Of a stretch of DNA of 38,523 bases, positions 20,311 through 38,523 are shown one piece after another. The stretch spans positions 1 through 38,523 of the forward strand of contig CALDQY010000003.1 in NCBI GenBank assembly GCA_937911445.1, written 5' to 3'. Below the pieces are notes generated by a model that was not told the DNA's origin, did no database searches, and saw only the letters and a program-made list of their open reading frames with translations. The DNA comes from an uncultured Rhodobiaceae bacterium. GTDB lineage: Archaea; Thermoplasmatota; Poseidoniia; Poseidoniales; Poseidoniaceae. Numbering within the stretch: position 1 is the stretch's first letter; each line of letters opens with the position of its first letter. Made by a program: the position numbers and the translations under genes.

Positions 20311-21363
20311 ATGGGGCAGTTGTATCTTACAACATTCGGAGCCTCTGAATGGATTATTCTGAGTGTGTGGATTCTCGCAGTTGTGTCTCCCATTGCGTAT
20401 TCTATCCGAAACAAGACGCCGATTGCGCTGGGGATTTCCGTTGGGTTACTGCTGGGTTACATCGTCCAATACGCGTTTGTTGTTATGGCTTCGTACGGTC
20501 TTGAGTTTCGGTTCGTATGGTTTGACTTCTGGCTGATTCCTGAGCGATTGGATTCCGTTGTCTACTACCCAACCCTGTTCACAGCAGGCTTCTTGCATAG
20601 CATGAGTGATGTGACGCACGTGCTTGGTAATGTTTTGGTCATTGCTTTGGTGGGCATTCCTCTTGAACAACGCTTGGGAGCCAAACGCTTCACAGTCGTC
20701 TATGTGACAGGATTGCTCGGAGGTTCAATTGCCTGGGTCTTCTTCAACAGCGGCTCAGGAACACCATCATGGGGCGCTTCAGGAGCTGCATATGGTCTGC
20801 TCGGAGCATACCTCTCTGGCTGGCCTCGTGATGAAATTCCATTCCCTCTCATTTTGATCCGGCCTTGGCCGGTTACCATCATTGCCTTGTTCTATTTTGG
20901 ATTTGAGTTGGTACGAGCGTTCAACACGGTTGGCCTCGGTGGTTATTCCACCGTTGCCCACATGGCGCACATTGGAGGATTTGTCGCTGCTTACGCTTTG
21001 CTTCCATTGGTGGCAAGAGGCGGGCCATACCCATTGGGTATTGTCGATGGAGGGCCGAAAGGATTCGGACATTCAAGAGCTGGATTTGACCAGATCAAAT
21101 CATCCATGGTTGATGTATCTGGCATCGACGACCCATGGACAGAACTTGGACTTGACGTTCCGAAGAATCTACGCGAGCCACTTCGAAAATTGAAGGAAGC
21201 TGGAGATGAAGCGGAAACGCGAATTGCATGGATGGAGCACATTGCCGAGGCTGGCGACTGCCCTGTTTGCCTCGCCCCATTGGGCATGGTCGAACGCCGT
21301 ACAGGGCCCCAACTCCAATGTTCGAAAGAACCGAAGCACTTGTCATGGCCAAAGCATGGATAA
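20311..21363 (+). CDS. Rhomboid-family intramembrane serine protease with C-terminal metal-binding tail
   Basis: 350 residues, with about six to seven membrane helices in the first 235. The rhomboid features are HVLGN (His103, Asn107), the catalytic Ser157 in WGASGAAYG, and His220 in HMAHIGGF. The rest is a soluble tail with CPVC at about residue 313 and QCSKEPKH near the end, which looks like an incomplete zinc ribbon using three Cys and a His. Start ATG at 20311 puts the first membrane helix near residue 14; an earlier in-frame ATG at 20263 would add 16 charged residues. It is divergent from ccmAB and precedes the subtilisin-like protease. Substrate unknown; membrane-anchored surface proteins are plausible. 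Confidence 0.88.
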   Translation: MGQLYLTTFGASEWIILSVWILAVVSPIAYSIRNKTPIALGISVGLLLGYIVQYAFVVMASYGLEFRFVWFDFWLIPERLDSVVYYPTLFTAGFLHSMSDVTHVLGNVLVIALVGIPLEQRLGAKRFTVVYVTGLLGGSIAWVFFNSGSGTPSWGASGAAYGLLGAYLSGWPRDEIPFPLILIRPWPVTIIALFYFGFELVRAFNTVGLGGYSTVAHMAHIGGFVAAYALLPLVARGGPYPLGIVDGGPKGFGHSRAGFDQIKSSMVDVSGIDDPWTELGLDVPKNLREPLRKLKEAGDEAETRIAWMEHIAEAGDCPVCLAPLGMVERRTGPQLQCSKEPKHLSWPKHG

Positions 21364-21399
21364 TCAGGGCCAATCAACACACGTTGGAGCGATACCATC

Positions 21400-21407
21400 A
21401 AAATATA
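21400..21407 (+). promoter_or_regulatory. Putative archaeal TATA element for the subtilase gene
   Basis: The A/T run AAATATAT lies in the gap after the rhomboid gene, centred about 30 bases before the ATG at 21434 and about 21 before the ATG at 21425. In archaea the TATA box sits about 26 bases from the transcription start, so this site would give a nearly leaderless mRNA for the 21434 start. It is the clearest TATA-like site in the window, but no experiment supports it. Confidence 0.4.
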
Positions 21408-21433
21408 TCGATTTGTGGTTGGGTATGGCGATT

Positions 21434-24400
21434 ATGCGCGGATGGTCTCATCACTCAAATCCAAGGCAGGCGTTGTTCTTGGTTTTGCTCATGCTTTTGC
21501 TGCCTATGGCATCGCAAGTTCAGGCGATAGAAACGCTCCCTGAGACACAAGAACCAACACACGCGCCTCCAATTCTGGTCGAAGGCTTGCCACCGCTCAT
21601 GTGTGGTGAGGAGTTGTGTGACCGACCACTTAGAATGTACGACCGTCAAGGGCGAGATGCCGCTTTGGATTATGGATGGTGGCAGGCCTATGGCCCAGAC
21701 CTCGACTGGAATGGTATGGATGACCGTCTTCAGCGTGTTCTAGACGGAATGGATTCTGTATCACCAACAGCGATCATTGGTGCAGACGGGCGAAAGACTG
21801 TCGCAATCGTAGTAGATTATGCATGGCACCCCTCAGAACCAGAAATCCAATCACTCAAATCAACACTTGAAGCACATGGCTGGGTTGGTGTGGAAAATGG
21901 CGCATGGTTTGAAGTGCTCAGGAGCATTGACAGCATCGTTGTTGACAAGGTTCCGGTTTCAGCTCTGATGGACATCTATCACCTTGAAGGGGTTGTCGTC
22001 ATAGAGATGCAAAACGTCATGGCTCCAGTGAATGACGTCGCTGCAAAAGCAGCTTTAGCACGTCCATCTCTGGAGTATGGGAACACTGCAAACGAACTCG
22101 GTTACTATGGAACAGGTGTCGTCATAGCAGTTATGGATACAGGTGTTGATAACGAACACCGCTCTCTCAACGACTTTGATGATGTTGATGATGCGCCAGA
22201 TGCAGATGCTTCGACATACAGCGATCAAAAGTGGGTTGCAGGTTTTGATGCAACATCTCCCAATCCGAATCCAGATGGCTCCACAGATCCCGATGATGGT
22301 AACGGTCACGGAACACACGTTGCAGGTTCGGCACTGGGTACGGGGGATTCATCGCGTGTTCACAGAGGAACAGCACCTGGTGCTGCTTTGGTTGACATCA
22401 AAGTCCTCACAGATGGCGGAGGAACCAATTCACAAGCGAGTCTGGCAGGCATTCAGTGGATGATCAACAACAAAGATACGGACTGGGGAATCAATTCGAC
22501 GTACCGGGGTATCCAAATCGCTTCCATGTCTTATGGTTCGGTTGGCACACCGCTCAACTCTGGTGACCAAGGTGATAACGGGACAAGCGCAGAAGCCTCA
22601 CTCATCAATCAAGCGACCGCTGAAGGCATTATTTGCGTTGTAGCTATCGGTAATGACGGCAGCAACAGAGTGCCTTCTCCTGGAAGTGCTGATGGCGCAA
22701 TAACAGTTGGCTCAGTGAACGACAAGAATACGATTCTAAGAGACGATGATGAGCATTCAGATTTCTCAAATTGGGGTCCACGACTTAGTGATGGAGACGA
22801 TGACGAGTGGGATGAACTCAAGCCGGATATTACCTCTTACGGGCACAACATTGTTTCAGCGACATATGGTACATCGCTCCCAATCCCCGGTGACACAGGA
22901 CTTGCGGACGACCAATACGATTCAAAGTCGGGAACGAGCATGGCAACTCCTATTGCATCAGGAGTCGTTGCTCTGATGCTGGAAGCAGATTCCACCCTTA
23001 CGCCTCAAGAAGTCAAGGATATTCTTCGAAACAGTTCCGAACAAAGAGGAGATCCATACGACGAATCCTTGTCAGAAAGGTGGAATGATAAATACGGATT
23101 TGGAATCATTGATGCAGCATGTGCCGTCAATTCAATTGAGGGAAACCCTTGTGACAACGGGTTTGTGGTAAAAGAATCCAAGAGCGATGTCAATGTTAGT
23201 TATCCTTCAAATGGCACTTGGCTGTTGAGTGATTCATTCACTCGAATTTCTGGAGAAGTCAACATGACCGAAATAGATTATCAGCGCGTTGAGTTGTACA
23301 TCGAACAGCATTTCTACGACAGAGGGCCAAAGATGCTCATGAATTGGACTGAAGCTAACGGGTCGATGGAAAATTGGTTCCTTGATGTTGAGATTCAAGA
23401 TTCATGGGTCGATTACAGCTCAAACGAGAAATTCTTACTCCTCCAAGCCAAAGCCTCCGACGATGATGGTAATGTCTCCAACGTGGCATATCGAAAGTTT
23501 AAGGTGTCTCGTGAAAGTATTTTGATCGATACGCCAATTTCGCGAAACGCCTTATCCGGTACCGTTGAAGTCAAAGGTGAAGTCGAAGGCGTGGAGCATG
23601 AACGAATTGAGTATCGCGTGGATGATGGTGACTGGTTGTTTGGTAGTTCAATCCAGACAAACAACAATCCTGGCGATGATGGAAAATCGAGTTGGTCCTT
23701 CAATTGGGACACAACTGAAATTGATGATGGATTCAGACAACTTTCTGTCCGAATGGTCAACAACTCTGGAAAAGAATCACAAATCGCTCAGAGAAGTTAC
23801 ACCATCGATAACATAGAACCTGCCCCATCGCTTCGATTTACAGGAGATGTCGAGGTACTGAATCGAGGCATGCCTGCAGAAGAAGCGTATCAAGGAAGTT
23901 TACTCGAGCTCAAATTCGACGTCTACAATGCAGGCGATGCTGATGCCTCGGATATTTTCGTTCGATTGGTTGCCCCTGGCGATGAATCTGAAGTGTATCC
24001 TTCGCAAGGGCTCATCCCTGAACTTCCGAAAGGAGAATCGGTTCAGGTTACATTGTTTTGGTCAGCGACTGTCGCAGGATCGCATGATGTTCGAATCGAA
24101 CTTGACCCGAACAACGCACAAGGAGACCCTGATACCTCGGACAACGTGTACGTTTTGAATTATGAAATTCTACAACGACCAGATCAACCTGTACTGCGCT
24201 ATTTGCCCGGATTCGTCACCACCTTGCCCGTTGTGCCACTTGTTGATGAAGAATACAAAATCGACATACGGATTGACAACCTCGGCAAATCGGAAGCATT
24301 CTCACTCGACATCGCACTCGAGTATTGGATTCCTGAGGCTGGCTGGCAATTGATTGACGAAGAGCGTGTTGGATTTGTTCCAGGGGCTACCAGTGAATCG

Positions 24401-26275
24401 GGTTACACCATGGTCGATTTTAGACACCAATCGGAGAAGATAGGCGCAGTACTCTACCGTGCTACGCTTACTGGAGATGGTGTCGAAAGTGATTACAGCC
24501 AAACAACGTTCAGTGTCATTGTCAGTGATGTATCAACCGTTGCAGGTTCAACCACACTTTCCCTCTCGGATGGTGAATACCCGGTTGCATTCGTAGGCGT
24601 AGAATCCTCAACACTCGTGTTTACTTCTGTCGATGGAGAACTTCATGCTCGGTCTTTGAATGACAACCTTTTGCTTCTTACAGACACGCTCGTTGACGAC
24701 AACTGGGAAGGGGAGCTCGATGTTTATCTCAGAGATGACGGATTGGTACATGCTGCATGGACGAGCCGCCAACAAACTGAGCAAGGATATTTTATGACCA
24801 ACATTGCCATGACTTCTTTTTCTCCTGCAGGGCAAATGCTCCCTATTCATACGCATCTTACACCTCTAAAAATCTCCGAGGGCAAATATTGGGGACTTGA
24901 TTTGACCGAAGATGATGGGACCATGGTCTTGTCTGGATACCACCGAAATATCTCAACGGGTGGTTCTTGGAGCGATGTCACTTCCATTTTCAGTTTGCAT
25001 TCTTCCTCACCAGATGTGGGCGAGAGTTGGAGTGAACCAAAGACGCATCTTGCAAACGTAGAGATTCATCCTGATGATGGTGACAAATTGTCAACTGTCC
25101 TTGATGATGAGATTTTGCACATTCTCTTCCAACAGGAACGAGACGATGTTACGGGTGTAGAGAGAAGTGGATTGATGTATACAAAAGGTGACCTTTTGTC
25201 TGCTTCATGGTCGTACCAGTCTTCAATTGGAGATGATGCATCTTCTGCACAAATATCGATCATCAACATCGATAATCAAAAAACCATCTTCGCATCTTGG
25301 ATTGAAGGTTCTGGTCAAAATGCAGAGATTGTAACGATTGCTACACAAGGTGATTGGGATGAGGATGTACATCGTGTTCAGGCACCGGGCGCAACCATTC
25401 TCATATACACTCAACGCAATGATATGGTTGAAGTGATTTACGACGAAATCACAGTCAGAGGAAAAGTTGCTCGCTATGGGATTCTGACAATTGACAACGA
25501 GCAGCCGGTTATTGGCCTTGGTAACATTGTATCAGAGAACGGAGTTCTTGGTTACAGTATGAATAACAAGGATGGAATTCTTTTCCTTGTCTCTGAAACA
25601 GGACGATTCTCAATGCAGAAGTTCCTACTCGATGAAGAACAAGAGGCTGGGGAGTCAAAATCCTTACTTGAGCAATTGTTGGAGCCTCTACCTGGTTCGG
25701 ACGAAACGAAGGTGAGGATATTCCTTGGCCTTGTTTCAGTCCTCTTCATTTTGTTTGTTCTTGTTGTGATTTCTCTCCGATCTGGCAGAAAAGAGGATAA
25801 CATCGCTGATGCGGCCATCGTAGAGGAAGACGAAGTTGCCATCCTCGTTCAGGTTGAAGAAGATGAGCAAGAGGAAGAATTGGTTGCCACAGTCCCAATT
25901 ACTCCTCCTGTACAGGTCGAGATGGAGGAACCCACGCTCGCAGCTGAACTGGAAGCAAAGAGCATTGCTGGCGAAGGGAATGCACGATTGAATCGTCGCA
26001 TGAAGAGGAAACAAGATCGTGAGATAGCAGAGATTGTTTCCAAAGGACTGCCTCCGTTGCCAACTCCAACACCGTTACCGGAACTACCAGCTGCCGAAGC
26101 ATTACCACCTCTACCTGTAGCAGAGCCCGGAACTGGTGCGCTACCGCCATTAGCAGATTTGCCTCCTCTTCGTCGCCAGGCGGTATGCCCCTCATGTGGC
26201 GCAAATTTCCCGGTAACCGATTTGATGCGGGCTCAAGTGATGTGTCCAATCTGTTCAGAAAGATTCAACCTTTGA
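21434..26275 (+). CDS. Giant membrane-anchored subtilisin-like serine protease
   Basis: About 1613 residues. An N-terminal signal sequence (QALFLVLLMLLLPMASQVQA) is followed by a subtilase S8 domain with Asp235 (VMDTGVD), His292 (NGHGTHVAG) and Ser502 (GTSMATPIASG). The ectodomain continues with Ig-like regions (23200-23810) and two CARDB-like repeats (about 23820-24160 and 24180-24520), then a beta-rich, propeller-like portion. A single helix (FLGLVSVLFILFVLVVISL, near residue 1430) anchors the C-terminus, followed by an acidic, Pro-rich cytoplasmic tail and a terminal zinc ribbon (CPSCGANF...CPICSERF). Start ATG at 21434 follows a TATA-like site; an ATG at 21425 is also possible. It probably degrades extracellular protein or processes surface proteins. 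glmS follows nine bases later. Confidence 0.92.
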   Translation: MRGWSHHSNPRQALFLVLLMLLLPMASQVQAIETLPETQEPTHAPPILVEGLPPLMCGEELCDRPLRMYDRQGRDAALDYGWWQAYGPDLDWNGMDDRLQRVLDGMDSVSPTAIIGADGRKTVAIVVDYAWHPSEPEIQSLKSTLEAHGWVGVENGAWFEVLRSIDSIVVDKVPVSALMDIYHLEGVVVIEMQNVMAPVNDVAAKAALARPSLEYGNTANELGYYGTGVVIAVMDTGVDNEHRSLNDFDDVDDAPDADASTYSDQKWVAGFDATSPNPNPDGSTDPDDGNGHGTHVAGSALGTGDSSRVHRGTAPGAALVDIKVLTDGGGTNSQASLAGIQWMINNKDTDWGINSTYRGIQIASMSYGSVGTPLNSGDQGDNGTSAEASLINQATAEGIICVVAIGNDGSNRVPSPGSADGAITVGSVNDKNTILRDDDEHSDFSNWGPRLSDGDDDEWDELKPDITSYGHNIVSATYGTSLPIPGDTGLADDQYDSKSGTSMATPIASGVVALMLEADSTLTPQEVKDILRNSSEQRGDPYDESLSERWNDKYGFGIIDAACAVNSIEGNPCDNGFVVKESKSDVNVSYPSNGTWLLSDSFTRISGEVNMTEIDYQRVELYIEQHFYDRGPKMLMNWTEANGSMENWFLDVEIQDSWVDYSSNEKFLLLQAKASDDDGNVSNVAYRKFKVSRESILIDTPISRNALSGTVEVKGEVEGVEHERIEYRVDDGDWLFGSSIQTNNNPGDDGKSSWSFNWDTTEIDDGFRQLSVRMVNNSGKESQIAQRSYTIDNIEPAPSLRFTGDVEVLNRGMPAEEAYQGSLLELKFDVYNAGDADASDIFVRLVAPGDESEVYPSQGLIPELPKGESVQVTLFWSATVAGSHDVRIELDPNNAQGDPDTSDNVYVLNYEILQRPDQPVLRYLPGFVTTLPVVPLVDEEYKIDIRIDNLGKSEAFSLDIALEYWIPEAGWQLIDEERVGFVPGATSESGYTMVDFRHQSEKIGAVLYRATLTGDGVESDYSQTTFSVIVSDVSTVAGSTTLSLSDGEYPVAFVGVESSTLVFTSVDGELHARSLNDNLLLLTDTLVDDNWEGELDVYLRDDGLVHAAWTSRQQTEQGYFMTNIAMTSFSPAGQMLPIHTHLTPLKISEGKYWGLDLTEDDGTMVLSGYHRNISTGGSWSDVTSIFSLHSSSPDVGESWSEPKTHLANVEIHPDDGDKLSTVLDDEILHILFQQERDDVTGVERSGLMYTKGDLLSASWSYQSSIGDDASSAQISIINIDNQKTIFASWIEGSGQNAEIVTIATQGDWDEDVHRVQAPGATILIYTQRNDMVEVIYDEITVRGKVARYGILTIDNEQPVIGLGNIVSENGVLGYSMNNKDGILFLVSETGRFSMQKFLLDEEQEAGESKSLLEQLLEPLPGSDETKVRIFLGLVSVLFILFVLVVISLRSGRKEDNIADAAIVEEDEVAILVQVEEDEQEEELVATVPITPPVQVEMEEPTLAAELEAKSIAGEGNARLNRRMKRKQDREIAEIVSKGLPPLPTPTPLPELPAAEALPPLPVAEPGTGALPPLADLPPLRRQAVCPSCGANFPVTDLMRAQVMCPICSERFNL

Positions 26276-28102: not shown

Positions 28103-28822
28103 TTAAACAACTGTAAAGCGTTGTTCTTCTTCCTTCCAATTGAATGGTTTGTAACCCAATGCATGTCGTGTGTGACGCATTTTGATGATGCCGAGTTTGC
28201 GTTGAACATCGTCCTCTTTTCGATCCATTACGAGATGAATAACTCCATCTGAAAGATAGTCTTCTACGCCATATTCTCCAAATTGTTTGTGATTTTCTCC
28301 CGTCATTTCACAGATAAAGAACGAGGTCAATTCAAGACGGCGAACTGCTTCAAAGAGTCTAAAAATCTCATCTCGAGGGTTTTCCATCTTGGTGAGCGTG
28401 AAGAACGCACCTAGCGAGTCGAAGACGAGCAGTTCAAAACCAATGGACTTCCTGTAATTTGTGAGTTGCTTAATCAATTGACCCATCCAGTCAACACGGT
28501 TGCTCATGCCTTGCTCGTCTAGTTGGACACGAAGGTCAGAAAGATCGATGATAGCAATTCGATTACGAACACGAGGGTCGTCTACGTTCATACCCATGTT
28601 GGACATGTGCGCTCGCAAAGAATCCTTTCCTTGTTCGAGCGTGACATAGATCCCACTCGTTTCGCCATACAATACAGCGTTGTAGAGCATTGAGAAGGTG
28701 ACACTCGATTTCATGGCACCAGATGCACCTGCAACGATGCAGATGTGTCCCTTCGGAATTCCGCCTTGCATGTTCTCATCGAGTCCTTCAATGTGTGTGG
28801 GAATTCGTTCCATGATGTCCAT
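28103..28822 (-). CDS. KaiC/RadA-superfamily ATPase with atypical Walker A
   Basis: One KaiC-type ATPase domain of 239 residues. It begins IPTHIEGLDENMQGGIPKG, the usual KaiC entry. The Walker A is GASGAMKSS (32-40), where the Gly before Lys is replaced by Met. The YVTLEQ glutamate (motif after strand 2) and a Walker B LLVFDSLGAFF are intact. C-terminally, IIKMRHTRH resembles the KaiC/RadA arginine-finger region. Single-domain KaiC proteins are common in archaea and regulate motility and signalling, but the target here is unknown. The stop codon adjoins the glmS stop. A 97-base region separates its ATG from the divergent maf gene. An alternative start is the ATG three codons later. Confidence 0.85.
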   Translation of the reverse strand: MDIMERIPTHIEGLDENMQGGIPKGHICIVAGASGAMKSSVTFSMLYNAVLYGETSGIYVTLEQGKDSLRAHMSNMGMNVDDPRVRNRIAIIDLSDLRVQLDEQGMSNRVDWMGQLIKQLTNYRKSIGFELLVFDSLGAFFTLTKMENPRDEIFRLFEAVRRLELTSFFICEMTGENHKQFGEYGVEDYLSDGVIHLVMDRKEDDVQRKLGIIKMRHTRHALGYKPFNWKEEEQRFTVV

Positions 28823-28919: not shown

Positions 28920-29504
28920 ATGCGCATCCTCTTGGCTTCTGCATCTGAACGACGAGGCACCATTCTTCGCCAGCGCTTTGCAAACGTCGAACAAGTCGCG
29001 CTCAAGGGCGTGGATGAATCTGTCTCCCACCAGATTCTCTCCAATCAAGTGAAGGAAGTTGCCTCACGCAAAGCAGAGGCTGTCGTACTCAACGATGAGT
29101 TCGATGTCGTGGTCGTTTCAGATACCCTAGTCGAGGATCCTGATGACGAACATGTCGCACTTGGAAAACCAGTCTCGAGGGAACAAGCTGTTGCTATGCT
29201 TCTCCGATTGCGTGGCCGCCGTCACCGTGTGTGGTCCGCAACGATGGTGCATGCTATGGACAAATGGCATTCAAGCGTTGAATACGCTGTTGTTGAAATC
29301 GAGGACTTTACGGATGATGCATTGGTCGAACTCATCGAATCAGACTCTTGGGTTGGTAAAGCTGGTGGCTATGACTTGGCTGGTATGATGGGAAAATACG
29401 CTCAATTGATTGAAGGCACAGAGCCGACAGTGTTGGGATTTACTCAGTCTTCTCTTGACTTGCTGGACGACGTTCAATCGATGTTCTCCATGAGTCGATC
29501 GTAA
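28920..29504 (+). CDS. maf: Maf-family nucleotide pyrophosphatase
   Basis: House-cleaning enzyme of 194 residues that hydrolyses non-canonical or modified nucleoside triphosphates to monophosphates. The signature LASASERR opens the protein. It continues with ASRKAEAV, the metal-site VVVSDT (Asp68), GKPVSREQAVAMLLRLRGR and KAGGYDLAGM, all of the Maf/YhdE/YceF pattern. Substrate preference among dTTP, UTP and m7GTP cannot be set from motifs alone. The start ATG at 28920 sits across a divergent region from the KaiC-like gene. The final 31 bases overlap the end of the convergent 12-helix membrane gene, in opposite orientation, an unusually long overlap for this compact genome. Confidence 0.9.
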   Translation: MRILLASASERRGTILRQRFANVEQVALKGVDESVSHQILSNQVKEVASRKAEAVVLNDEFDVVVVSDTLVEDPDDEHVALGKPVSREQAVAMLLRLRGRRHRVWSATMVHAMDKWHSSVEYAVVEIEDFTDDALVELIESDSWVGKAGGYDLAGMMGKYAQLIEGTEPTVLGFTQSSLDLLDDVQSMFSMSRS

Positions 29505-30760
29505 AACATCGGCATTCGGTGCCAGTTGTCCGATGGGAATACAGTATGTCGAATGAACAAAATCCCGAGCAAGAAGGATGCAACACTTTGTGTCCCAATC
29601 CAAATGTACACCGGCAAGTATTCTCCATCCAAAAGCACGGCTCCATCATAGAGAGACCATGTCATAAGGACGCCGCAAGCAAGGAACATCAACACCAGGT
29701 GCCAATGCGTTATCCGTGTTGATGGAGAATAATGCAAGTGATCTTCGTGAAGGAAAATAGCAAACCCGCAGACGACGAAGAAACATGAATAGGCAATCAA
29801 TAACCAATGTGCAGGCTGAATGTTTGCTATGCCTTCATGTCCTGTCCAAATAGGTGCAATTGAAACGAGTGAGAGCAGGGGCAACAGGAAGTACCCTATG
29901 AACACAAATCGAGAATGCGGTTTTGCAAATTTCCCGATGGAGAATCGTAAAACCTTCAACGGGTTCATCATGAAAAATACGTTCAAGAGAAGAACTGCGA
30001 AACCGATATCGATTAAATCCTCTGATATCGAATTCCTCGCTCGCAGAAAACTCGCCACAACGTAACCAATTCCTAAGAGGATGAGGATGAGGAACCGAAC
30101 TGGTAGAGTTTTCGGGTTTGTTGTATTCCAACCTAGCCTGCGATTGAAATGTGAGAGTATGACTGTCGACATCATCATCATGCAAAAGATCCCTACAATG
30201 AAAGCAACCCCAACTTGTATCATGCCATCGATTCCACGCATAAACCATGATGCAACGATAAACAACGAGCAGAACACGAGAACCAATCCGGGCGAATATG
30301 AGAAAATACCAACCTCTCCTGAGTTGCTCTTCTGTTTGACAATGTCAATCGATGATGGCGTGAGCGTGAGTAAAGCGAGGCACATTAAAACGATACCAAT
30401 TCCAGAGAATTCGATGAACACGTCCCAATTACCAATGTAGATGCCAATATGAATGAACAATTGCCCAAGACCGTTGAGTTGCAAAAAGTGACGCATTGTT
30501 GTCCGTTCAAAGGACGGGACTTTGTACACCAGCGGCAACGTATCAAACGCAATACCAGCAAGGATGGCCATGACAGGTCCTAATGCGAAAAGCGTAATCA
30601 AAACAAAGTTCATGATTTCAAGACGCTCAGTGTTCTCGAACAACTCGTAAGGAGAAAAAAATGTTAACCACGCCAGAAGGAATGTTAAGGCGATGAAGAA
30701 CAACATCGATGATGTAAACAGTTCAAGATAAGAACCTGCGAATTGCTGACGCCTGTCCAT
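29474..30760 (-). CDS. 12-helix membrane protein, possible heme-copper-oxidase-like fold
   Basis: A 428-residue protein with twelve predicted membrane helices and short loops. I do not recognise a named family. Histidines occur at helix ends: RHFLQLNGLGQLFIHIG in helix 3, LHEDHLHYSPSTRITHWH between helices 10 and 11. The second to third helix segment GIAFDTLPLVYKVP has some resemblance to subunit I of cbb3-type oxidases (gly-x3-Pro before a short loop), and twelve helices is the count for that fold. Metal-ligand histidines in the expected pattern are not clear, so this is a weak suggestion. It lies nine bases after the SepF-like gene on the same strand and overlaps maf by 31 bases at its end. 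Confidence 0.6.
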   Translation of the reverse strand: MDRRQQFAGSYLELFTSSMLFFIALTFLLAWLTFFSPYELFENTERLEIMNFVLITLFALGPVMAILAGIAFDTLPLVYKVPSFERTTMRHFLQLNGLGQLFIHIGIYIGNWDVFIEFSGIGIVLMCLALLTLTPSSIDIVKQKSNSGEVGIFSYSPGLVLVFCSLFIVASWFMRGIDGMIQVGVAFIVGIFCMMMMSTVILSHFNRRLGWNTTNPKTLPVRFLILILLGIGYVVASFLRARNSISEDLIDIGFAVLLLNVFFMMNPLKVLRFSIGKFAKPHSRFVFIGYFLLPLLSLVSIAPIWTGHEGIANIQPAHWLLIAYSCFFVVCGFAIFLHEDHLHYSPSTRITHWHLVLMFLACGVLMTWSLYDGAVLLDGEYLPVYIWIGTQSVASFLLGILFIRHTVFPSDNWHRMPMFYDRLMENID

Positions 30761-30769
30761 CGTTTCACC

Positions 30770-31321
30770 TCAAGATACGCGCAGCAGACGTGTAATTCCA
30801 AGCTCGTGCTTTTCAATATCAACAACGACATCTGCTCCGGGAATCATCAACAACTTGTCTTCCGAATCCAGAGCAAAGACGCCAACACCTACTTGTTCAC
30901 ACATAACTCGTAACTCTCGTCGACAGGCCTGTTGATGCGATTCCATGTGGACCAATGTTCGTAGATCAACGATCACAGTATCCCCTTGAAGCACTCGTTG
31001 AGCGATGTCTCGCGTGTGGATACGATGCTTTTCATCTGGCTTAACATACCGAAGCGCTCGTGTTGGTCGAGTCATAACCCGTCCTCCATGGTGTGAGAGA
31101 TCGTGGAATGGTTCTCCGTCTGGTGTTACTGGTCCATTCCATTCGAAAGAGATGTTTTCGTCGATTTGAGATGTAGGCGTCTCCTCGACAATTTGGGTTT
31201 CTACTGCAACAGGTTCATTGGTCAATTGCCTGTTTTGCGTGGAAGCAGGTGCTTCTGCAACTCGAGCCGCACCACCCGCATCTGGGTCCGGGAGTCCAAA
31301 GAACTGCCATAGATTTCCCAT
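30770..31321 (-). CDS. sepF: SepF-like cell-division membrane-anchor protein
   Basis: 183 residues. The C-terminal half (about 92-178) follows the SepF pattern: TRDIAQRVLQGDTVIVDLRT, a helix with RRELRVMCEQVGVGVFAL, and DKLLMIPGADVVVD. The N-terminus MGNLWQFFGLPDP is a short amphipathic helix of the membrane-targeting type. The middle is acidic and disordered. Archaeal SepF tethers FtsZ to the membrane at midcell. The ATG at 31321 starts five bases after the upstream stop; an in-frame GTG at 31330 overlapping that stop as GTGA is also possible, but would displace the helix from the N-terminus. Position downstream of two giant surface proteins suggests co-expression. Confidence 0.7.
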   Translation of the reverse strand: MGNLWQFFGLPDPDAGGAARVAEAPASTQNRQLTNEPVAVETQIVEETPTSQIDENISFEWNGPVTPDGEPFHDLSHHGGRVMTRPTRALRYVKPDEKHRIHTRDIAQRVLQGDTVIVDLRTLVHMESHQQACRRELRVMCEQVGVGVFALDSEDKLLMIPGADVVVDIEKHELGITRLLRVS

Positions 31322-31326
31322 CGTTA

Positions 31327-34300
31327 TCACAAATCCAAATCATCCAGTAGGTCGGAGAGATTCGTGTCCTGATTCGATGGTGGAGTCATTGAAGGTGTCG
31401 GTTGATAGGTAGGTGCAGGTGCTTGATTTGCTGCCAGATATTGCTCACCATAGTACGCCCATTGTTCCATGGTCCAACCAGCCGGCAGGCCAGTGGCTGG
31501 GAGTGGAGGGCCTTGATTCACGACTGGCTGTTCAACAAACGGTTCTGGTTGAACAGGCGCTTGTGGTGCTGGCTGCTCGTATGTGGGCAATTCCGAAGGC
31601 GCATAACTTGGTAAGGGCGTTGTATCCCATGCTTTGTTCGATGGAGTCTCGACCAAATCTGGCGGTGAACGGCGAGTGATGAGCAGGAACGATGCCAACA
31701 TGATCACCAAACCAACGAGTCCTAGAATGACGATCGACATGGTTTTAGAGACACCCAATGTATCGCTGAACTCTTCGATGAATCCTTCAGGGGGCGGTTC
31801 TGCAACATCGATGGTAAGCGTAAATGTGTCCGTCGAAAGATCGTCATCGGTTACAGTGAGGTTGATCTTCCACGTGCCAACCGGTAAATCGGTTATCGAT
31901 ACTACAGGCCCAGTTTCACCAAGGTCATTCTCGCCTCTCCACTCAAATGTCCAAACGTAGAGCATGTTCAGCAGATCTGAATCTGAGTCCGTTGTCCCAT
32001 CGGATGAGAGGTTGAGCGTATCGCCCTTCACGAGGTTGTCAAGTGATCCGTTGGCGAACGAAATCTCTGCGCCCGGCAGGACGTTCTGAACTTTGACAAC
32101 AGCCGAAATCGATGCCATGGCACCATCGTCGTCCTTCACCCATGCCGTAACGGTTCGGAACTGAGGGTTGCTGGTCTCCCATGTGTACTCAAAATGAGTC
32201 CCACTCACATCGCAGTCATTGTTCAAGGTGCCATCGAGGTCCGCATCACGTGTTCCGTCGATATCCCAACAGACTTCCAGTGAATCCTTGTCTGAAGCCG
32301 TATCATCAACAGCGACGTCAAAGACCACTTCGTCGTCTTCATCAACCGTAAGGCCTTTGTTGACAGCGTTGAGGAAATTCGCTTCTGCTGTCATGGTTGG
32401 CGGTACGTTGACAATTGTGACCTTTGCGAGCGATGTGGAAGAGGTCGCTCCGTCGTCATCAACAGCACGAACTGAGATGATGTGTTCTCCAGACGTTGGC
32501 CACGAGGTTGAAACATCGGAGGCGGAACCATCAGTGGATACGGTGAAATTATCGAGAACATCACTTAGGTTCCAGTCGATGATGAGTCCATCACGGTCGT
32601 TGAGTGTATCATCGCCTTGGGCACGAAGAATGACGGTCTGATCCTCTTGGAGTACCCAGGTTCCATTCGCATCGAATGGTGTGTTTACGCCTGCAATCCA
32701 CACGCCAATTTCGCCGATGGTTGGGGCTACATTCAGAACTTCAATCGATGAAAGCACTTCGGTTTCTTCGCCATCATCGTCGGTTGCGATGGCACGGATT
32801 GGCATCGTTCCCTCCTCAAGTGGCGAAAACGTACACGTCGGTTGCGTTAACCCTTCAAGACAGTTCAAATCTGGCCAAGAAATACTGACCTGCTGGCCCG
32901 ATGGAGATACTGTATCAATATCGCCGCTATCACTGGCATCGATGGTGATGGAGGATTCGACAGCAATTTCCGGTGGGTGGCTGAGGTTGATGTACGGTGC
33001 TCGATTCAGGATGGTGACATTGCTGATCAAAACAGTTGAGTCAAGTTCATTGTCGGTTACAATGGTTCGCAATTCCCAGTCACCGTCGTCAGACCAGTTC
33101 CAACTGATAGCACAATCTGGCGTTGTAATGACATCGACAAGACCTGGACGTGATTCAATTTCAAATCGGCACTCGACGTCTCCACCATCAGGGTCAAAGG
33201 AAGAACGGGCGTCAATGAAGACGTCCTCGAACGTGTAATTCCCAGTGTCGATAGCAATGGATGCGTTCGGTGCACGGCCGATGAAGACGTCAACAGTAGC
33301 TTGGTTGTTGCTTCGATTGGCGTCTCCGGTGATGAGCTCATCCGGATCAACGGTGAAGGTCAATGTCTGGTTGCCGATGGTGGAATCTTCAGGAACAATC
33401 CAGTCGATTACAATGCGTTGCTCACTGTACGCCTCGATGGATGGAACAGCCTGTCGGCTCGAATCGCCATCGGGCACAACAATTTCCATTTCTGTTGAAG
33501 GCGATGGCAAAACACCTCTGTTTTGGGCTGGTAGAGAGAAGGAGAGTTCGTCACCGGGCAAGGCGTTGTATCCGATCGATTTGGACAGGGTCGCAACCTC
33601 ACCATCGCGAGTTCGAGTAACGATGATTGAATCTTCTTGAGCAACCAAATCGATACCTACAACAGACAAATCGATGACAACCGTGGCAACGCCAATGATT
33701 TCCTGAACTGGATCCCAGACTATCACGCCGTTGCTGCTAAAATCATCGCTAGCGATGGTGTCATCGACGACGTTTGAAACATTGATTGTCTCTTCAATCT
33801 GTCCACTGCTGTTGGTAGTTGGATTAATCAGCGTTCCCGCCATTTCGTAACGCAACTGGAGGTTTTTGTTGACCTCTGGTATGCCGTTTGGAGCAACCGA
33901 GTAGGTTGCATAAATCTTTGATTCTGAGTCTGGTAATGTAGCAATAAATTGAGTCTCAACCTCAATGTCGACGTTCCGATCGCCCGGGTTTTTTCTTTTG
34001 TCAACGCCAAACGAGTCAACGGGTTCGTAGTCTTTCAAGAGCCAATCAATGGTGAAACCAGCAGCGTTTGAGATTCGTATCCAAGAGTTGAATCGAACAG
34101 CGGGACAGTACCAATTAAACCCAGCACTGACGCCTGTGGCGTTCCATTCGTTGACTTTGTACGAATCATCGCATCCTTCGTACTTGATGTTCTGTCCATC
34201 TTCCGTTGGAATTCCATCCTTGGTGACCTGCCAAGATGTATTTTCGGCTCCTTGAGTATCAAACGAGGTCGGGTCGAAGTAATCAGATGAACCACTTACA

Positions 34301-34911
34301 CTCGTGCCTGACATGAAGGGCATGTACCATTGGTCACCCGTCCGCATTGGGAAATCGTATTTTTCTTTTGGCGGGTCGTAATAGGTATCGAATGAGATTG
34401 TGGCGAGGTTCTGGGATAGGAAGCCAAGATTGAATGGTGCAAAGCTGACGTCTAATTCAAATTCCGAATTGATAACTGCGAGATCTCGTACTCGTACGAT
34501 GTCCTCGCCTGAATAATCGATGTCGAGCCTTCCACTGACCCCTTCAAGTGTTGCGCCACTGTTTCCTGATGAGAATTCCCCTTCGATGAGCATCTTGTAT
34601 GCAAGCGTCTGAATCCCGTCAACATTGATGAAAAAGATGTCATCAATTTCGTAAGCAGTGTCCCCGGTGAGTGTATTGAGGCTCGCAGATACGTTGGCTT
34701 GTGCCAGCAGTTGAGAGACATCGAATTGCGTTTCATAGGTCCACTTGTCACCGATGCGCCAGCTTGGGACATCGGTCGAGCTTGTTGTACCTGAGGATTG
34801 GTCAACAGATGGTAGCAGGTCAAGTGTCGTTGTGTCGTTGTTGACAAAGTGCACAGTGGATGAACCTGCCAAAAGGAACAAAACTAGGAATGTCAATACG
34901 CGGTTCGCCAT
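31327..34911 (-). CDS. Giant PKD/CARDB surface protein A
   Basis: 1194 residues. An N-terminal signal peptide (VLTFLVLFLLAGSSTVHF) is followed by a cap domain opening PSWRIGDKWTYETQFD. Next comes a CARDB-like module near residue 450-545, then several PKD-like Ig folds (SSFDPDGGDVECRF, ATDDDGEETEV, AVDDDGATSSTS, WVKDDDGAMASI). A helix (SIVILGLVGLVIMLASFLL) near residue 1060 anchors the protein. The short cytoplasmic tail, Pro- and Gln-rich, has the motif GLPAGWTMEQWAYYGEQYL and ends LSDLLDDLDL. It is a paralog of the adjacent upstream gene, sharing domain order and motifs. It probably forms part of the surface layer or binds partners; no enzymatic motif is seen. Confidence 0.88.
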   Translation of the reverse strand: MANRVLTFLVLFLLAGSSTVHFVNNDTTTLDLLPSVDQSSGTTSSTDVPSWRIGDKWTYETQFDVSQLLAQANVSASLNTLTGDTAYEIDDIFFINVDGIQTLAYKMLIEGEFSSGNSGATLEGVSGRLDIDYSGEDIVRVRDLAVINSEFELDVSFAPFNLGFLSQNLATISFDTYYDPPKEKYDFPMRTGDQWYMPFMSGTSVSGSSDYFDPTSFDTQGAENTSWQVTKDGIPTEDGQNIKYEGCDDSYKVNEWNATGVSAGFNWYCPAVRFNSWIRISNAAGFTIDWLLKDYEPVDSFGVDKRKNPGDRNVDIEVETQFIATLPDSESKIYATYSVAPNGIPEVNKNLQLRYEMAGTLINPTTNSSGQIEETINVSNVVDDTIASDDFSSNGVIVWDPVQEIIGVATVVIDLSVVGIDLVAQEDSIIVTRTRDGEVATLSKSIGYNALPGDELSFSLPAQNRGVLPSPSTEMEIVVPDGDSSRQAVPSIEAYSEQRIVIDWIVPEDSTIGNQTLTFTVDPDELITGDANRSNNQATVDVFIGRAPNASIAIDTGNYTFEDVFIDARSSFDPDGGDVECRFEIESRPGLVDVITTPDCAISWNWSDDGDWELRTIVTDNELDSTVLISNVTILNRAPYINLSHPPEIAVESSITIDASDSGDIDTVSPSGQQVSISWPDLNCLEGLTQPTCTFSPLEEGTMPIRAIATDDDGEETEVLSSIEVLNVAPTIGEIGVWIAGVNTPFDANGTWVLQEDQTVILRAQGDDTLNDRDGLIIDWNLSDVLDNFTVSTDGSASDVSTSWPTSGEHIISVRAVDDDGATSSTSLAKVTIVNVPPTMTAEANFLNAVNKGLTVDEDDEVVFDVAVDDTASDKDSLEVCWDIDGTRDADLDGTLNNDCDVSGTHFEYTWETSNPQFRTVTAWVKDDDGAMASISAVVKVQNVLPGAEISFANGSLDNLVKGDTLNLSSDGTTDSDSDLLNMLYVWTFEWRGENDLGETGPVVSITDLPVGTWKINLTVTDDDLSTDTFTLTIDVAEPPPEGFIEEFSDTLGVSKTMSIVILGLVGLVIMLASFLLITRRSPPDLVETPSNKAWDTTPLPSYAPSELPTYEQPAPQAPVQPEPFVEQPVVNQGPPLPATGLPAGWTMEQWAYYGEQYLAANQAPAPTYQPTPSMTPPSNQDTNLSDLLDDLDL

Positions 34912-34935
34912 GTGTGAATGTCTGCTTTCTCGTAC

Positions 34936-37900
34936 TTAGGAATTGTCAACCTGCGAGTCGAGCCATTGTTGACCATAGTGCTCCCACTGCTCCATCGTCC
35001 ACCCCTCGGGCAATCCGCCTTCTGGAAGAGGGGGTCCAGTTGTAGGCGCAGGGGCTACGTTGACTGAATCAAAGGCTCGTTCAATAGGTGGATCTTGTGG
35101 TCGATTGCGACGTGCTGAGATTTCATGCGGCATCAGGCCGACTTCCTCATCGCTGAAAATTGCGTTCTGCTGCTGGTCAAGCCGATCCATGGCTCGTTGT
35201 TGTCTGCCTGAACGTCGACGTCGGGTCATCATGCCGAGGACAAGGAGCATGAACGCAAGCAATGAAAGTTGAGCAACTGGATTGGCTTCATCGCCGACGA
35301 GGGCAGCGCCTAATTCTTCAACGATTGTACGTTCTGGGGCACCGATCTCAACATTGATGACTCGAGTTCCGGGTCGTTCCGGATTCTCATCCCAGGCAAT
35401 GACTCGGATTGTGTAAGATCCTTCACGGGTAAACACATGTTCGATTTGTTTACCGATTTTGTCAGCATCGTTGTCTTTGACTCCATCACCATTGCTGTCA
35501 ACAGACGTGTCGAGATCCCAAACGACCGTGATTTGGTCGAGATCATTGATGGAGTCAATCGTTCCAGTTGCATCCAAAAGACATGCTTCGAGGGCGTTGC
35601 AGACAATGTCTTTGGTTCGGACGATTGGTGGGATGTTGAGGACTTCAATGGAGAGAATCTCACTGACACGCACGCCGTCGTCGTCGGTTACGTGATAGAT
35701 GACCGTGTGCGTCCCGCTTGTGTTCCAATGCCAGACCAGCTCATCGCCAATCACATCGCAGTCATCATCAGCACCGCCGATATCGTTGGAATCGAGACCG
35801 GGATCGACATCCCAGCAACGAATCAACGTGTCGTAATCGGAGGGAGTATCGGTAGCATTGCCGACCAATCGAACTTCTTCTCCTTCTGCGAGGGGAAGAA
35901 CTTGCTCCAGTGGCTGAACAACTGGTGGGACGTTCGCAACACTTACCCATCGCTCGTATGTACCGCTGCTGGCCCCTTCAGAGTCGCTTACCTCGAGGCG
36001 CATGCGGTGGAGCCCTGATGTCTCCCACATCATCTCAAATTCAGAAACTCGCCCATCGAAGGTTTTGATGAGATTTGGCTGCGCATCATCTGGCCACCAT
36101 CGGTGGGTTAAGCCATCTAAATCATCGACTGAATCGAGGGCTTGGCCACGGAGATTGACCATTTGGTCCTCCTGAACATGCCAAGTTTGCTGGACATCAA
36201 GCGGTAGGGGACCACTCTCATTGGTCATGGTGACGGACAGCCCGTGGGGGTTGATGTTGGTGAATCGGATATCGATGCTGGCCATGGTCATGGCACTATC
36301 GTCGTCGACGCCAACGGCTTGGAATGTATGCCATCCTTCAGTTGGTGCAGTCGTTGTACAAACTCGCGTGTAGTACCCTTCTTCGCAGATTGCATTTAGC
36401 CAGTACACGTCCACAATCCCTGGAAACGGATCTTCAGAATCTGTATCGTTTGCATAAGCATAGAGTGTAACGGGATGTTCAACTTTGACCTCGTTACGAG
36501 CGCTGATGACCTCGATGTTTGGCGCCCGATTCAAAATGACAACATCAAGAATGCCTTCGACTTGGTCTTGTTCTTCGTCGGTAATGGTCACCTCGACAGG
36601 GTATTCACCATCGTTTGTCCATGTCCAGTTCAGCATGCAATCCATGGATTCAACTCGCGTCCACGCAGCCGAGCGAGTGCCATCGTACCAAGGAACATTA
36701 AACAGACAGGATACATTACCACCGTCTTCATCAAAACTACCTGAGGCATTGATCACCGTCTCGACGTTTGTGTAGACTTCGATGGGCTCGAGGACTGCTG
36801 TCGGTAGACGTCCAATGAACAATTCAATTTCACCGAGGTCGTTATCGGCATCCGCATCTGCAGTATTGACTTGCAGAGGATCGGATTCCCATCGAATTGG
36901 CAAGGTTCCAATCGCTGCATCAGCGGGTACTGTCCAAGTGAAATTGACCTTGTGAGATTCGTATGTGGCGAGCGGTGGTAATCCGAGGTCAAAGATGGAA
37001 CCATCTGGATGATAAATGCGCAAATCTGTTGCTGTGGATGTTGTGATGCCTTTGTTGACAACAGCGACTTCGATGGTTAAGTCATCACCGGGAAGGACAT
37101 TGTAACCGGACAGTGAACTGACAGTGCTTACAACGCCGCTCCTGTTTCGAATGATGACTGCTCGTTCTTCGTCTGCAATCAAGTCGAGGCCAACAAGATA
37201 CTCATCGAGCGTAATGGTGGCTGCACCAACGTAACTTCCAGATTTCGCCATAATGCCATGGCTGGACCAGTCCGTGTTCGTTGCAGAATAGTCAATGCTG
37301 CTACCTGAATCAATCGTTGTGCTTGCTGAACCGTTTGAAGCGGTGTAGACAGTGGTTGAGGCACCATCGTATGCGACCTCAACTCCAACGCCATCAATGG
37401 TCCCATAACACGATGGGCTGAGGTGAACCCATACTTCGAGCGGTGAATCAAGTGCTGTGAGAGAACGCTCAGGAGCGACATCGACACATGTCGGCCGAGT
37501 GCCTGGATCACTGTTGCTTTCAACGCCTGTGGCTCCAACAGGCATGTACTGTTTCAAGCGGAAATCAATGGTCAGGCCAACGTCTTCCTCGGCATGTCGC
37601 CATGCGTAATTGTTGACCGCTGGGCAGTACCATCTGTAACCCGTCGAGACACCATCTGAGTTCCACGATGTCAGCTCATACGATGCATCGCATCCACTGT
37701 AAGCGATTCCAGCTCCGATGGCGTTTCGAGGTTGTCCTACATCGGTGACTTCCCATGTTGTTGTGTTGGTATCTGTTTCTGGTGGCGGGAACGGTGTGAT
37801 GTAATCGCTTTGACCAGACCATTGAGAGGATGCAGTTGTCAGTGAAGTCCACCGTTCTCCATAGCGGAGTGGGAAATCGTATACCTCCGTAGCAGGGCTG

Positions 37901-38436
37901 TATTCGTTCGTAATCGTGATATCACCAAGGATTTGCGTGAGCGAACCGATTCCGTATGGAATGAACTTGATGTACAGATCGAGATCGTTCTTCACAGTCG
38001 CAAAATCGCTCACTCGTAGGTATTCGGTTTGTGTGAATTGGATTTCAGCGTTTCCTGTGAACCCTTCAAGTTCAACACCACTTTTGTCGAAATCTGCAGA
38101 CATCCGCAATTTGTAAACCCATTCGGTTCCATTGTCGAATTGAAGTTCGAGAATATCTACGACTTCAGCAGTCGCATCGCCTCGAATCTCACCCACGTTC
38201 GCTGAAACGCCCGTATCTGTAATGAGGATGGAAGGATCAAACGTCCCTGAGTAAATCCACTTGTCACCGACTCTCCATGATGGTAGGTCGGTCACACCAG
38301 GGTCGGACCCACTTCGCTGGACGACTTGCTCGTTGGAAGGCAGAAGGTTGTGTTCAACCAATGGGATTTGACTGAACCCAATCATGCATGCGAGAACGAG
38401 CAGGGTCAAGACACGTGACTTGAACACTCCGCCCAT
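34936..38436 (-). CDS. Giant PKD/CARDB surface protein B (paralog of A)
   Basis: About 1166 residues with the same order as the neighbouring paralog: signal peptide (SRVLTLLVLACMIGFSQIP), cap domain with LPSWRVGDKWIYSGTFDPS, CARDB-like module, multiple PKD-like domains (SFDEDGGNVSCLF, GVDDDSAMTM, VTDDDGVRVSE), and one membrane helix (LSLLAFMLLVLGMM, near 1055). The tail has basic RRRRSGRQQ after the helix and the motif GLPEGWTMEQWEHYGQQWL, ending with DSQVDNS. Cys pairs occur in the cap domain (YSGCDASYEL...WYCPAV), also present in paralog A, suggesting a disulfide. I start at the ATG at 38436; the in-frame GTG at 38460 would put eight residues before the signal peptide. It is 24 bases upstream of paralog A on the same strand. 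Confidence 0.87.
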   Translation of the reverse strand: MGGVFKSRVLTLLVLACMIGFSQIPLVEHNLLPSNEQVVQRSGSDPGVTDLPSWRVGDKWIYSGTFDPSILITDTGVSANVGEIRGDATAEVVDILELQFDNGTEWVYKLRMSADFDKSGVELEGFTGNAEIQFTQTEYLRVSDFATVKNDLDLYIKFIPYGIGSLTQILGDITITNEYSPATEVYDFPLRYGERWTSLTTASSQWSGQSDYITPFPPPETDTNTTTWEVTDVGQPRNAIGAGIAYSGCDASYELTSWNSDGVSTGYRWYCPAVNNYAWRHAEEDVGLTIDFRLKQYMPVGATGVESNSDPGTRPTCVDVAPERSLTALDSPLEVWVHLSPSCYGTIDGVGVEVAYDGASTTVYTASNGSASTTIDSGSSIDYSATNTDWSSHGIMAKSGSYVGAATITLDEYLVGLDLIADEERAVIIRNRSGVVSTVSSLSGYNVLPGDDLTIEVAVVNKGITTSTATDLRIYHPDGSIFDLGLPPLATYESHKVNFTWTVPADAAIGTLPIRWESDPLQVNTADADADNDLGEIELFIGRLPTAVLEPIEVYTNVETVINASGSFDEDGGNVSCLFNVPWYDGTRSAAWTRVESMDCMLNWTWTNDGEYPVEVTITDEEQDQVEGILDVVILNRAPNIEVISARNEVKVEHPVTLYAYANDTDSEDPFPGIVDVYWLNAICEEGYYTRVCTTTAPTEGWHTFQAVGVDDDSAMTMASIDIRFTNINPHGLSVTMTNESGPLPLDVQQTWHVQEDQMVNLRGQALDSVDDLDGLTHRWWPDDAQPNLIKTFDGRVSEFEMMWETSGLHRMRLEVSDSEGASSGTYERWVSVANVPPVVQPLEQVLPLAEGEEVRLVGNATDTPSDYDTLIRCWDVDPGLDSNDIGGADDDCDVIGDELVWHWNTSGTHTVIYHVTDDDGVRVSEILSIEVLNIPPIVRTKDIVCNALEACLLDATGTIDSINDLDQITVVWDLDTSVDSNGDGVKDNDADKIGKQIEHVFTREGSYTIRVIAWDENPERPGTRVINVEIGAPERTIVEELGAALVGDEANPVAQLSLLAFMLLVLGMMTRRRRSGRQQRAMDRLDQQQNAIFSDEEVGLMPHEISARRNRPQDPPIERAFDSVNVAPAPTTGPPLPEGGLPEGWTMEQWEHYGQQWLDSQVDNS

Positions 38437-38481
38437 GCATATGCTTAGATGTTCTTGCACATCAAAGGTGCGACGATGGCC

Positions 38482-38523
38482 TCAGAGGAGATCAGCAAGT
38501 TCGTCCTTGATGATTTCAACTGC
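38482..38523 (-). CDS. C-terminal fragment of a gene entering from the window edge
   Basis: On the minus strand the last 42 bases read AVEIIKDELADLL followed by TGA, a plausible end of a helical protein. The strand agrees with the following cluster and the gap to the PKD gene start is 45 bases. The opposite-strand reading MASEEISKFVLDDFNC from 38476 is an alternative, but it would place a divergent gene very close to the PKD promoter. Too short for any functional call. Confidence 0.4.
   Translation of the reverse strand, partial: AVEIIKDELADLL

Follow-up and report, generated by a model that had tools for sequence, protein, structure and literature searches.

A giant PKD-domain ectoprotein and a divergent SepF form a conserved gene pair in Poseidoniales: a candidate tie between cell surface and division ring

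A divergent SepF-domain protein (SepF-A) and a giant PKD-domain ectoprotein (PKD2) are encoded by a tightly coupled, one-to-one gene pair that is kept throughout the order Poseidoniales, and the conserved cytosolic end of the giant may serve to dock it on SepF-A. The pair was studied on a stretch of 38,523 nucleotides (the window), which is the complete contig C3 of genome G000 (2.04 Mb, 318 contigs, 87.5% complete). The relatives used for comparison are grouped into f1, the family of the window (Poseidoniaceae), f2, a second family of the same order, and f3, a second order of the same class; f2 most likely corresponds to Thalassarchaeaceae and f3 most likely to Marine Group III. A relative of SepF-A in a Ca. 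Poseidoniales MAG is 94% identical, and the named matches belong to Ca. Poseidoniaceae or Marine Group II (MGII). The following genes were annotated in the window:

38482–38523, minus strand: C-terminus of the TATA-binding protein (TBP), truncated by the contig edge; AVEIIKDELADLL and stop, read directly
34936–38436, minus strand: PKD1, giant ectoprotein, optional tandem copy; ATG start, with a GTG at 38460 possible
31327–34911, minus strand: PKD2, giant ectoprotein directly upstream of SepF-A and its conserved partner (ORF, Pfam, 118 of 121 relatives)
30770–31321, minus strand: SepF-A, divergent SepF-domain protein; ATG start, profile and fold matches
29474–30760, minus strand: many-helix membrane protein (10–12 TM segments), optional member (ORF, hydropathy)

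An earlier note on this DNA had described the last four genes as a tight minus-strand row with two paralogous giants, and both statements were borne out: the re-measured gaps are 24, 5 and 9 bases, and PKD1 and PKD2 align over their full length (32% identity over 1187 columns, E 4e-178). An alternative GTG start of SepF-A at 31330 would overlap the PKD2 stop codon as GTGA. The end of TBP, the general transcription factor, lies 45 bases ahead of the PKD1 ATG; it is identical in relatives, where the complete gene is assigned to TBP by Pfam (E 1.3e-49). For the many-helix protein, no relative was found above cut-off in Pfam, NCBIfam, PHROG or PDB, and at the hydropathy threshold used at least 10 strong hydrophobic segments were counted, so that the 12 helices named earlier are plausible but not proved. 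Two further genes of the window were observed, a KaiC-domain protein (28103–28822) with 76–90% identity across f1, much above the conservation of its neighbors, and a 1689-residue subtilase-CARDB surface protein (21206–26275) with one TM segment and a zinc-ribbon-like cytosolic C-terminus.

In both sampled families, a giant is located directly upstream of SepF-A on the same strand in 118 of the 121 loci whose upstream gene could be read, a count in which some loci represent one contig retrieved twice by different searches and are thus not all independent. The spacing is a gap of 9 bases in 46 loci and an overlap (−4) in 39, the others being similar, and the three exceptions look like an N run, a likely break of the reading frame and a contig that ends early. 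Since the pair is kept to this extent, the arrangement is not due to chance. The synteny proposed for all four genes was confirmed for the giant–SepF pair, which is retained order-wide, but not for the four-gene unit: the 12-helix gene directly follows SepF-A in 63 of 123 loci, none of them in f2, and the second, PKD1-type giant is optional and limited to some lineages. For this reason, a single envelope-division machine made up of the products of all four genes, with the 12-helix protein among them, is very improbable. Such a reading is suggested by the close packing of the genes in the window and in its genus, and it is weakened by the losses of the second giant and by the lack of the 12-helix gene beside SepF in half of the loci and all f2 loci.

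The gene order MVK (mevalonate kinase), TBP, giant and SepF-A recurs upstream in f1 and f2, and in several f2 genomes TBP overlaps or almost abuts the giant. With TBP read in the same direction ahead of the giants, these genes could belong to a mixed housekeeping operon, and for the same reason co-transcription alone implies no role in division. MVK, TBP, giant and SepF-A would then be neighbors through kept gene order and a common transcript, and the giant would be an ordinary surface or adhesion protein without a physical link to SepF-A. The order shared by both families and the closeness of TBP and giant in f2 speak for this explanation. Against it, Maf/KaiC/GlmS follow SepF-A in f1 and other genes in f2, so that the downstream neighbors are reshuffled while the giant–SepF pair is not; moreover, the giant family occurs almost only at the SepF-A locus, another giant stands ahead of SepF in f3, and the copy next to SepF has a conserved cytosolic C-terminus (see below). 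On balance, a housekeeping operon, the main rival of the docking model proposed below, is regarded as a possible but rather doubtful explanation.

The assignment of SepF-A to SepF was verified with profile and structure comparisons, for which these parts of the protein are relevant:

30791–31069, minus strand: core domain of SepF-A (AF2)
31283–31321, minus strand: N-terminal hydrophobic segment of SepF-A, MGNLWQFFGLPDP, of the membrane-targeting type (conservation, hydrophobicity/moment)

No SepF match was obtained in a Pfam scan of the single SepF-A sequence, and nothing exceeded the cut-offs in Pfam, NCBIfam or PHROGs. When the whole genome was searched with PF04472, SepF-A was the best match, scoring 12.8 bits where the cut-off is 27, which is a detection limit and not a biological criterion; among 20 family members, one was matched (E 0.016). 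A family profile built from 20 sequences and compared with all PDB sequences returned the archaeal SepF 3zie as the first match (E 0.0087). The AF2 model, with a pLDDT of about 96 across most of residues 90–165, was compared with the PDB by Foldseek, and the top 11 matches were all SepF (probability 1.00, target TM 0.67–0.80), with archaeal SepFs ranking highest. The comparison with canonical Thermoplasmatota SepF by hhalign gave a probability of 95.3 (E 2.1e-8), whereas reversed decoys reached about 0.1%. As PDB profile, Foldseek and hhalign agree, the SepF identity holds despite the sub-threshold Pfam score, and the SepF match in the earlier note thus survives. The N-terminus is strongly conserved in the family alignment (MxNLWxFFGLPDP / MVNLFRLLGLPDP), and its hydrophobic moments resemble those of canonical SepFs, while AF2 gives no confident helix. 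It probably belongs to the membrane-binding type that characterizes SepF anchors. On helix alpha2, a basic CRR is largely conserved in most members. Of 116 genomes of the order, 115 have SepF-A and all 116 have FtsZ.

The single SepF of the earlier note is a SepF gene, but one of two. In the f2 genus g12, a second SepF gene above or near the Pfam SepF cut-off is located directly upstream of ZPR1 (zinc-ribbon), and order-wide a SepF-domain ORF, SepF-B, was found at this position in all readable loci (26 of 30 loci, L320–L349). In the window's genome, this divergent SepF-domain gene lies at L335:908-1486 (G000:C203), directly upstream of ZPR1. The SepF-B profile matches canonical SepF with an hhalign probability of 97.2, and several further Thermoplasmatota families likewise have a SepF next to ZPR1. 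A tree of 51 SepF sequences shows SepF-A and SepF-B each as one MGII clade with full support; SepF-B is placed among the canonical SepFs and SepF-A outside all others on a very long branch, the tree being midpoint-rooted and its direction therefore uncertain. The N-terminal membrane-type segment is kept by SepF-A, and none is obvious in SepF-B or the f3 SepF. Our reading of these data is that SepF-B, with its ZPR1 neighbor, looks like the inherited SepF and SepF-A like a diverged paralogue.

Since SepF-B exists and is nested among canonical SepFs, the principal anchor of FtsZ may be a protein other than SepF-A. SepF-A could have been diverted from FtsZ to organize the PKD giants at the membrane, for example in surface patches, vesicles or cell shape, while SepF-B does division. 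The outlying position of SepF-A on its long branch and the ZPR1 neighborhood that SepF-B shares with other Thermoplasmatota are consistent with such a diversion; the membrane-type N-terminus, which is present on SepF-A and missing from SepF-B, and the retention of both SepFs together with FtsZ argue against it, and it is considered unlikely.

In PKD1 and PKD2, PKD and CARDB domains were detected by Pfam, and in a hydropathy scan, members of the giant family have a signal-type N-terminus and, towards the C-terminus, a single TM segment. The following regions were assigned in PKD2:

33577–34782, minus strand: N-terminal region of PKD2, residues 44–445, all-beta and order-specific (alignment, AF2 pLDDT 85, genome search)
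31678–31740, minus strand: TM segment of PKD2, followed by RR (direct sequence reading, family hydropathy)

A profile of the N-terminal region detected it in 17 of 17 genomes of the order, almost exclusively at the SepF-A locus, with additional copies or fragments in G017, G007 and G004; the same search found it in none of eight f3 genomes. The confident all-beta model gave only weak Ig-like or macroglobulin-type matches in the PDB and no clear homologue there. From the hydropathy, we infer that PKD2 crosses the membrane once, from outside to inside, and ends in a cytosolic tail of about 115 residues. PKD/CARDB domains and a C-terminal anchor are common to the PKD-repeat surface proteins of archaea; in contrast to these, the giants described here add the order-specific N-terminus, the near-exclusive linkage to SepF and a conserved cytosolic end.

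Three short motifs were located in the tails of the giants:

34984–35004, minus strand: GWTMEQW tail motif of PKD1, not SepF-specific (sequence)
31459–31479, minus strand: GWTMEQW tail motif of PKD2, not SepF-specific (sequence)
31330–31350, minus strand: C-terminal LLDDLDL of PKD2, proposed docking peptide for SepF-A (conserved end in f1)

The anchors and tails of the two giants had been reported as matching. This applies to GWTMEQW, which is common to PKD1 and PKD2, but not to the last seven residues, LLDDLDL, which occur on PKD2 only. GWTMEQW was also tried as the SepF-docking motif and rejected: it occurs at eight places in the window's genome (at least six besides PKD1 and PKD2), several of them on unrelated surface proteins, and is missing from most f2 giants. 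As unrelated surface proteins carry it, it cannot be a SepF-specific docking signal. The longer form GLPxGWTMEQWxxYGxQYL was observed as a cytosolic tail motif on several large, otherwise different surface proteins (also L090, L092–L095) and resembles a tag used throughout the lineage.

In f1, the PKD2 tail consists of a variable P/Q-rich linker, usually GWTMEQW, and LLDDLD[LFI] at the extreme end in nearly all members. Each genome has about one or two DDLD[LF]-stop ends, most of them on PKD2, and about one other protein per genome, such as a cytosolic zinc-ribbon-like protein or a second surface protein, ends in this or a similar way. The f2 giant tails mostly end with DIEALF[DE][DE]. Genus g16 deviates, its SepF-adjacent giant ending with EEE and the tandem copy with LDLDI or LDWDL. 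A cytosolic protein with a PKD2-like C-terminus (LL[DG]DDLDL / LIDDDLDF) was observed in L354, L355, L358 and L367; it is zinc-ribbon-like in L355 (221 aa), L358 and L367 and shorter in L354. PKD2 and this zinc-ribbon-like protein could possibly have a common binding partner.

In Methanobrevibacter smithii, the C-terminal peptide (CTD) of FtsZ bound in the SepF groove contains LDDFI, and three Asp pair with Arg/Lys of SepF (PMC8178401). The LLDDLD[LF] end resembles LDDFI, a suggestive but short similarity, and the largely conserved CRR of SepF-A lies on the corresponding helix. That the PKD2 tail copies the organism's own FtsZ tails is unsupported: MGII FtsZ (L060–L118) ends with EFVN/QFIG or RFD, without the GID motif that is reported as nearly invariant in archaeal FtsZ tails (PMC8178401). 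A third, partial match to the FtsZ/tubulin family was observed at G000:C71:3792-4097, besides the two FtsZs of the genome.

We tentatively propose, giving it somewhat less than an even chance, that PKD2 and SepF-A constitute a two-protein device of Poseidoniales in which the PKD2 tail docks on SepF-A and couples the cell surface to the division ring. PKD2 would be a membrane protein of type I that exposes an ectodomain of about 1000 residues and reaches into the cytosol with a flexible tail beyond its single TM helix, and SepF-A would be a cytosolic protein of the SepF fold with an N-terminal segment of the membrane-binding type. SepF dimers are known from homologues. The acidic-hydrophobic end of PKD2 (LLDDLD[LF] in f1, mostly DIEALF[DE][DE] in f2) would bind the peptide groove of SepF-A, which in characterized SepFs accommodates the FtsZ tail, either beside FtsZ or in competition with it. 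By tying FtsZ filaments to a surface protein, SepF-A would couple constriction to the outer layer, or it would serve as a marker of the division site, the part played by MapZ in streptococci. Of the elements of this model, the data show the SepF fold, the order-wide one-to-one pairing, the tight gene coupling, the near restriction of the giant to this locus and the conservation of its tail; the topology, the binding of the tail in the groove, the localization and the division role are putative. This docking model is favored because the downstream neighbors differ between the families while the giant stays, because a different PKD giant precedes SepF in f3, and because LLDDLD[LF] resembles the LDDFI of M. 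smithii and SepF-A keeps its basic CRR. It is weakened because TBP lies upstream, SepF-B exists as a second SepF, DDLD[LF]-type ends are not unique, the f2 tails differ and the adjacent giant of g16 ends with EEE.

In f3, a canonical SepF above the Pfam cut-off was found in 13 of 15 genomes, and in 12 of 12 loci inspected (L244–L255) it lies directly after the gene of a large protein. Complete copies of this protein comprise about 1140–1220 residues with a signal segment and usually one C-terminal TM segment, and the copies read contain a metalloprotease-like HEFGH motif and PKD repeats. An orthologous relationship with the MGII giant was rejected, as the N-terminal region is unrelated (0 of 8 genomes) and only PKD/CARDB repeats are common. 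Outside the class, no giant was found beside SepF in the rest of the phylum, save one secreted-type protein of 874 aa at a distance of 194 bases. An undiscovered additional partner that places SepF has been proposed (PMC8178401). The giant PKD protein could be such a transmembrane partner, with LLDDLD[LF] mimicking the FtsZ tail in the groove of SepF-A and the f3 giant playing the same part; in this full form, the idea is judged rather unlikely.

The core fold, a probable N-terminal membrane-type segment, the flexible linker and the co-occurrence with FtsZ are common to SepF-A and the archaeal SepFs of M. smithii and H. volcanii (PDB 3zie, 3zig). SepF-A differs from these by a score below the Pfam SepF cut-off, a two-residue insertion before the last strands, its separate long-branch clade, a second SepF in the genome and a fixed giant-protein neighbor. 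MapZ of Streptococcus pneumoniae resembles PKD2 as a single-pass membrane protein with an ectodomain and a proposed surface-to-ring tie, as an analogy only: the topology of MapZ is reversed relative to PKD2, the proposed contact of PKD2 is SepF and not FtsZ, and we know of no homology between the two. CdpA and CdpB1-CdpB2 of Haloferax volcanii are archaeal divisome factors beside SepF and FtsZ, like the role proposed here. To our knowledge, neither CdpA nor CdpB is a giant PKD ectoprotein; the CdpB proteins are PRC-barrel proteins (PMC12186497). In the open-access literature, no report of the giant–SepF pair or of two SepFs in Poseidoniales was found.

In archaea that lack peptidoglycan, membrane and surface layer have to be constricted together, yet SepF and FtsZ both reside in the cytosol. 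A surface protein locked beside SepF across an abundant marine order is a named candidate for the connection, with a specific seven-residue motif, and the giant is thus a candidate for the missing link between division ring and cell surface. Most archaea are reported to have one SepF, in a variable gene neighborhood (PMC8178401), a situation from which the two-SepF, two-FtsZ set of Poseidoniales departs. If the proposed docking is true, FtsZ and the archaeal cell surface are physically connected through one SepF paralogue, and if the f3 giant has the same role, the coupling of SepF to a giant would have arisen or been re-fitted twice.
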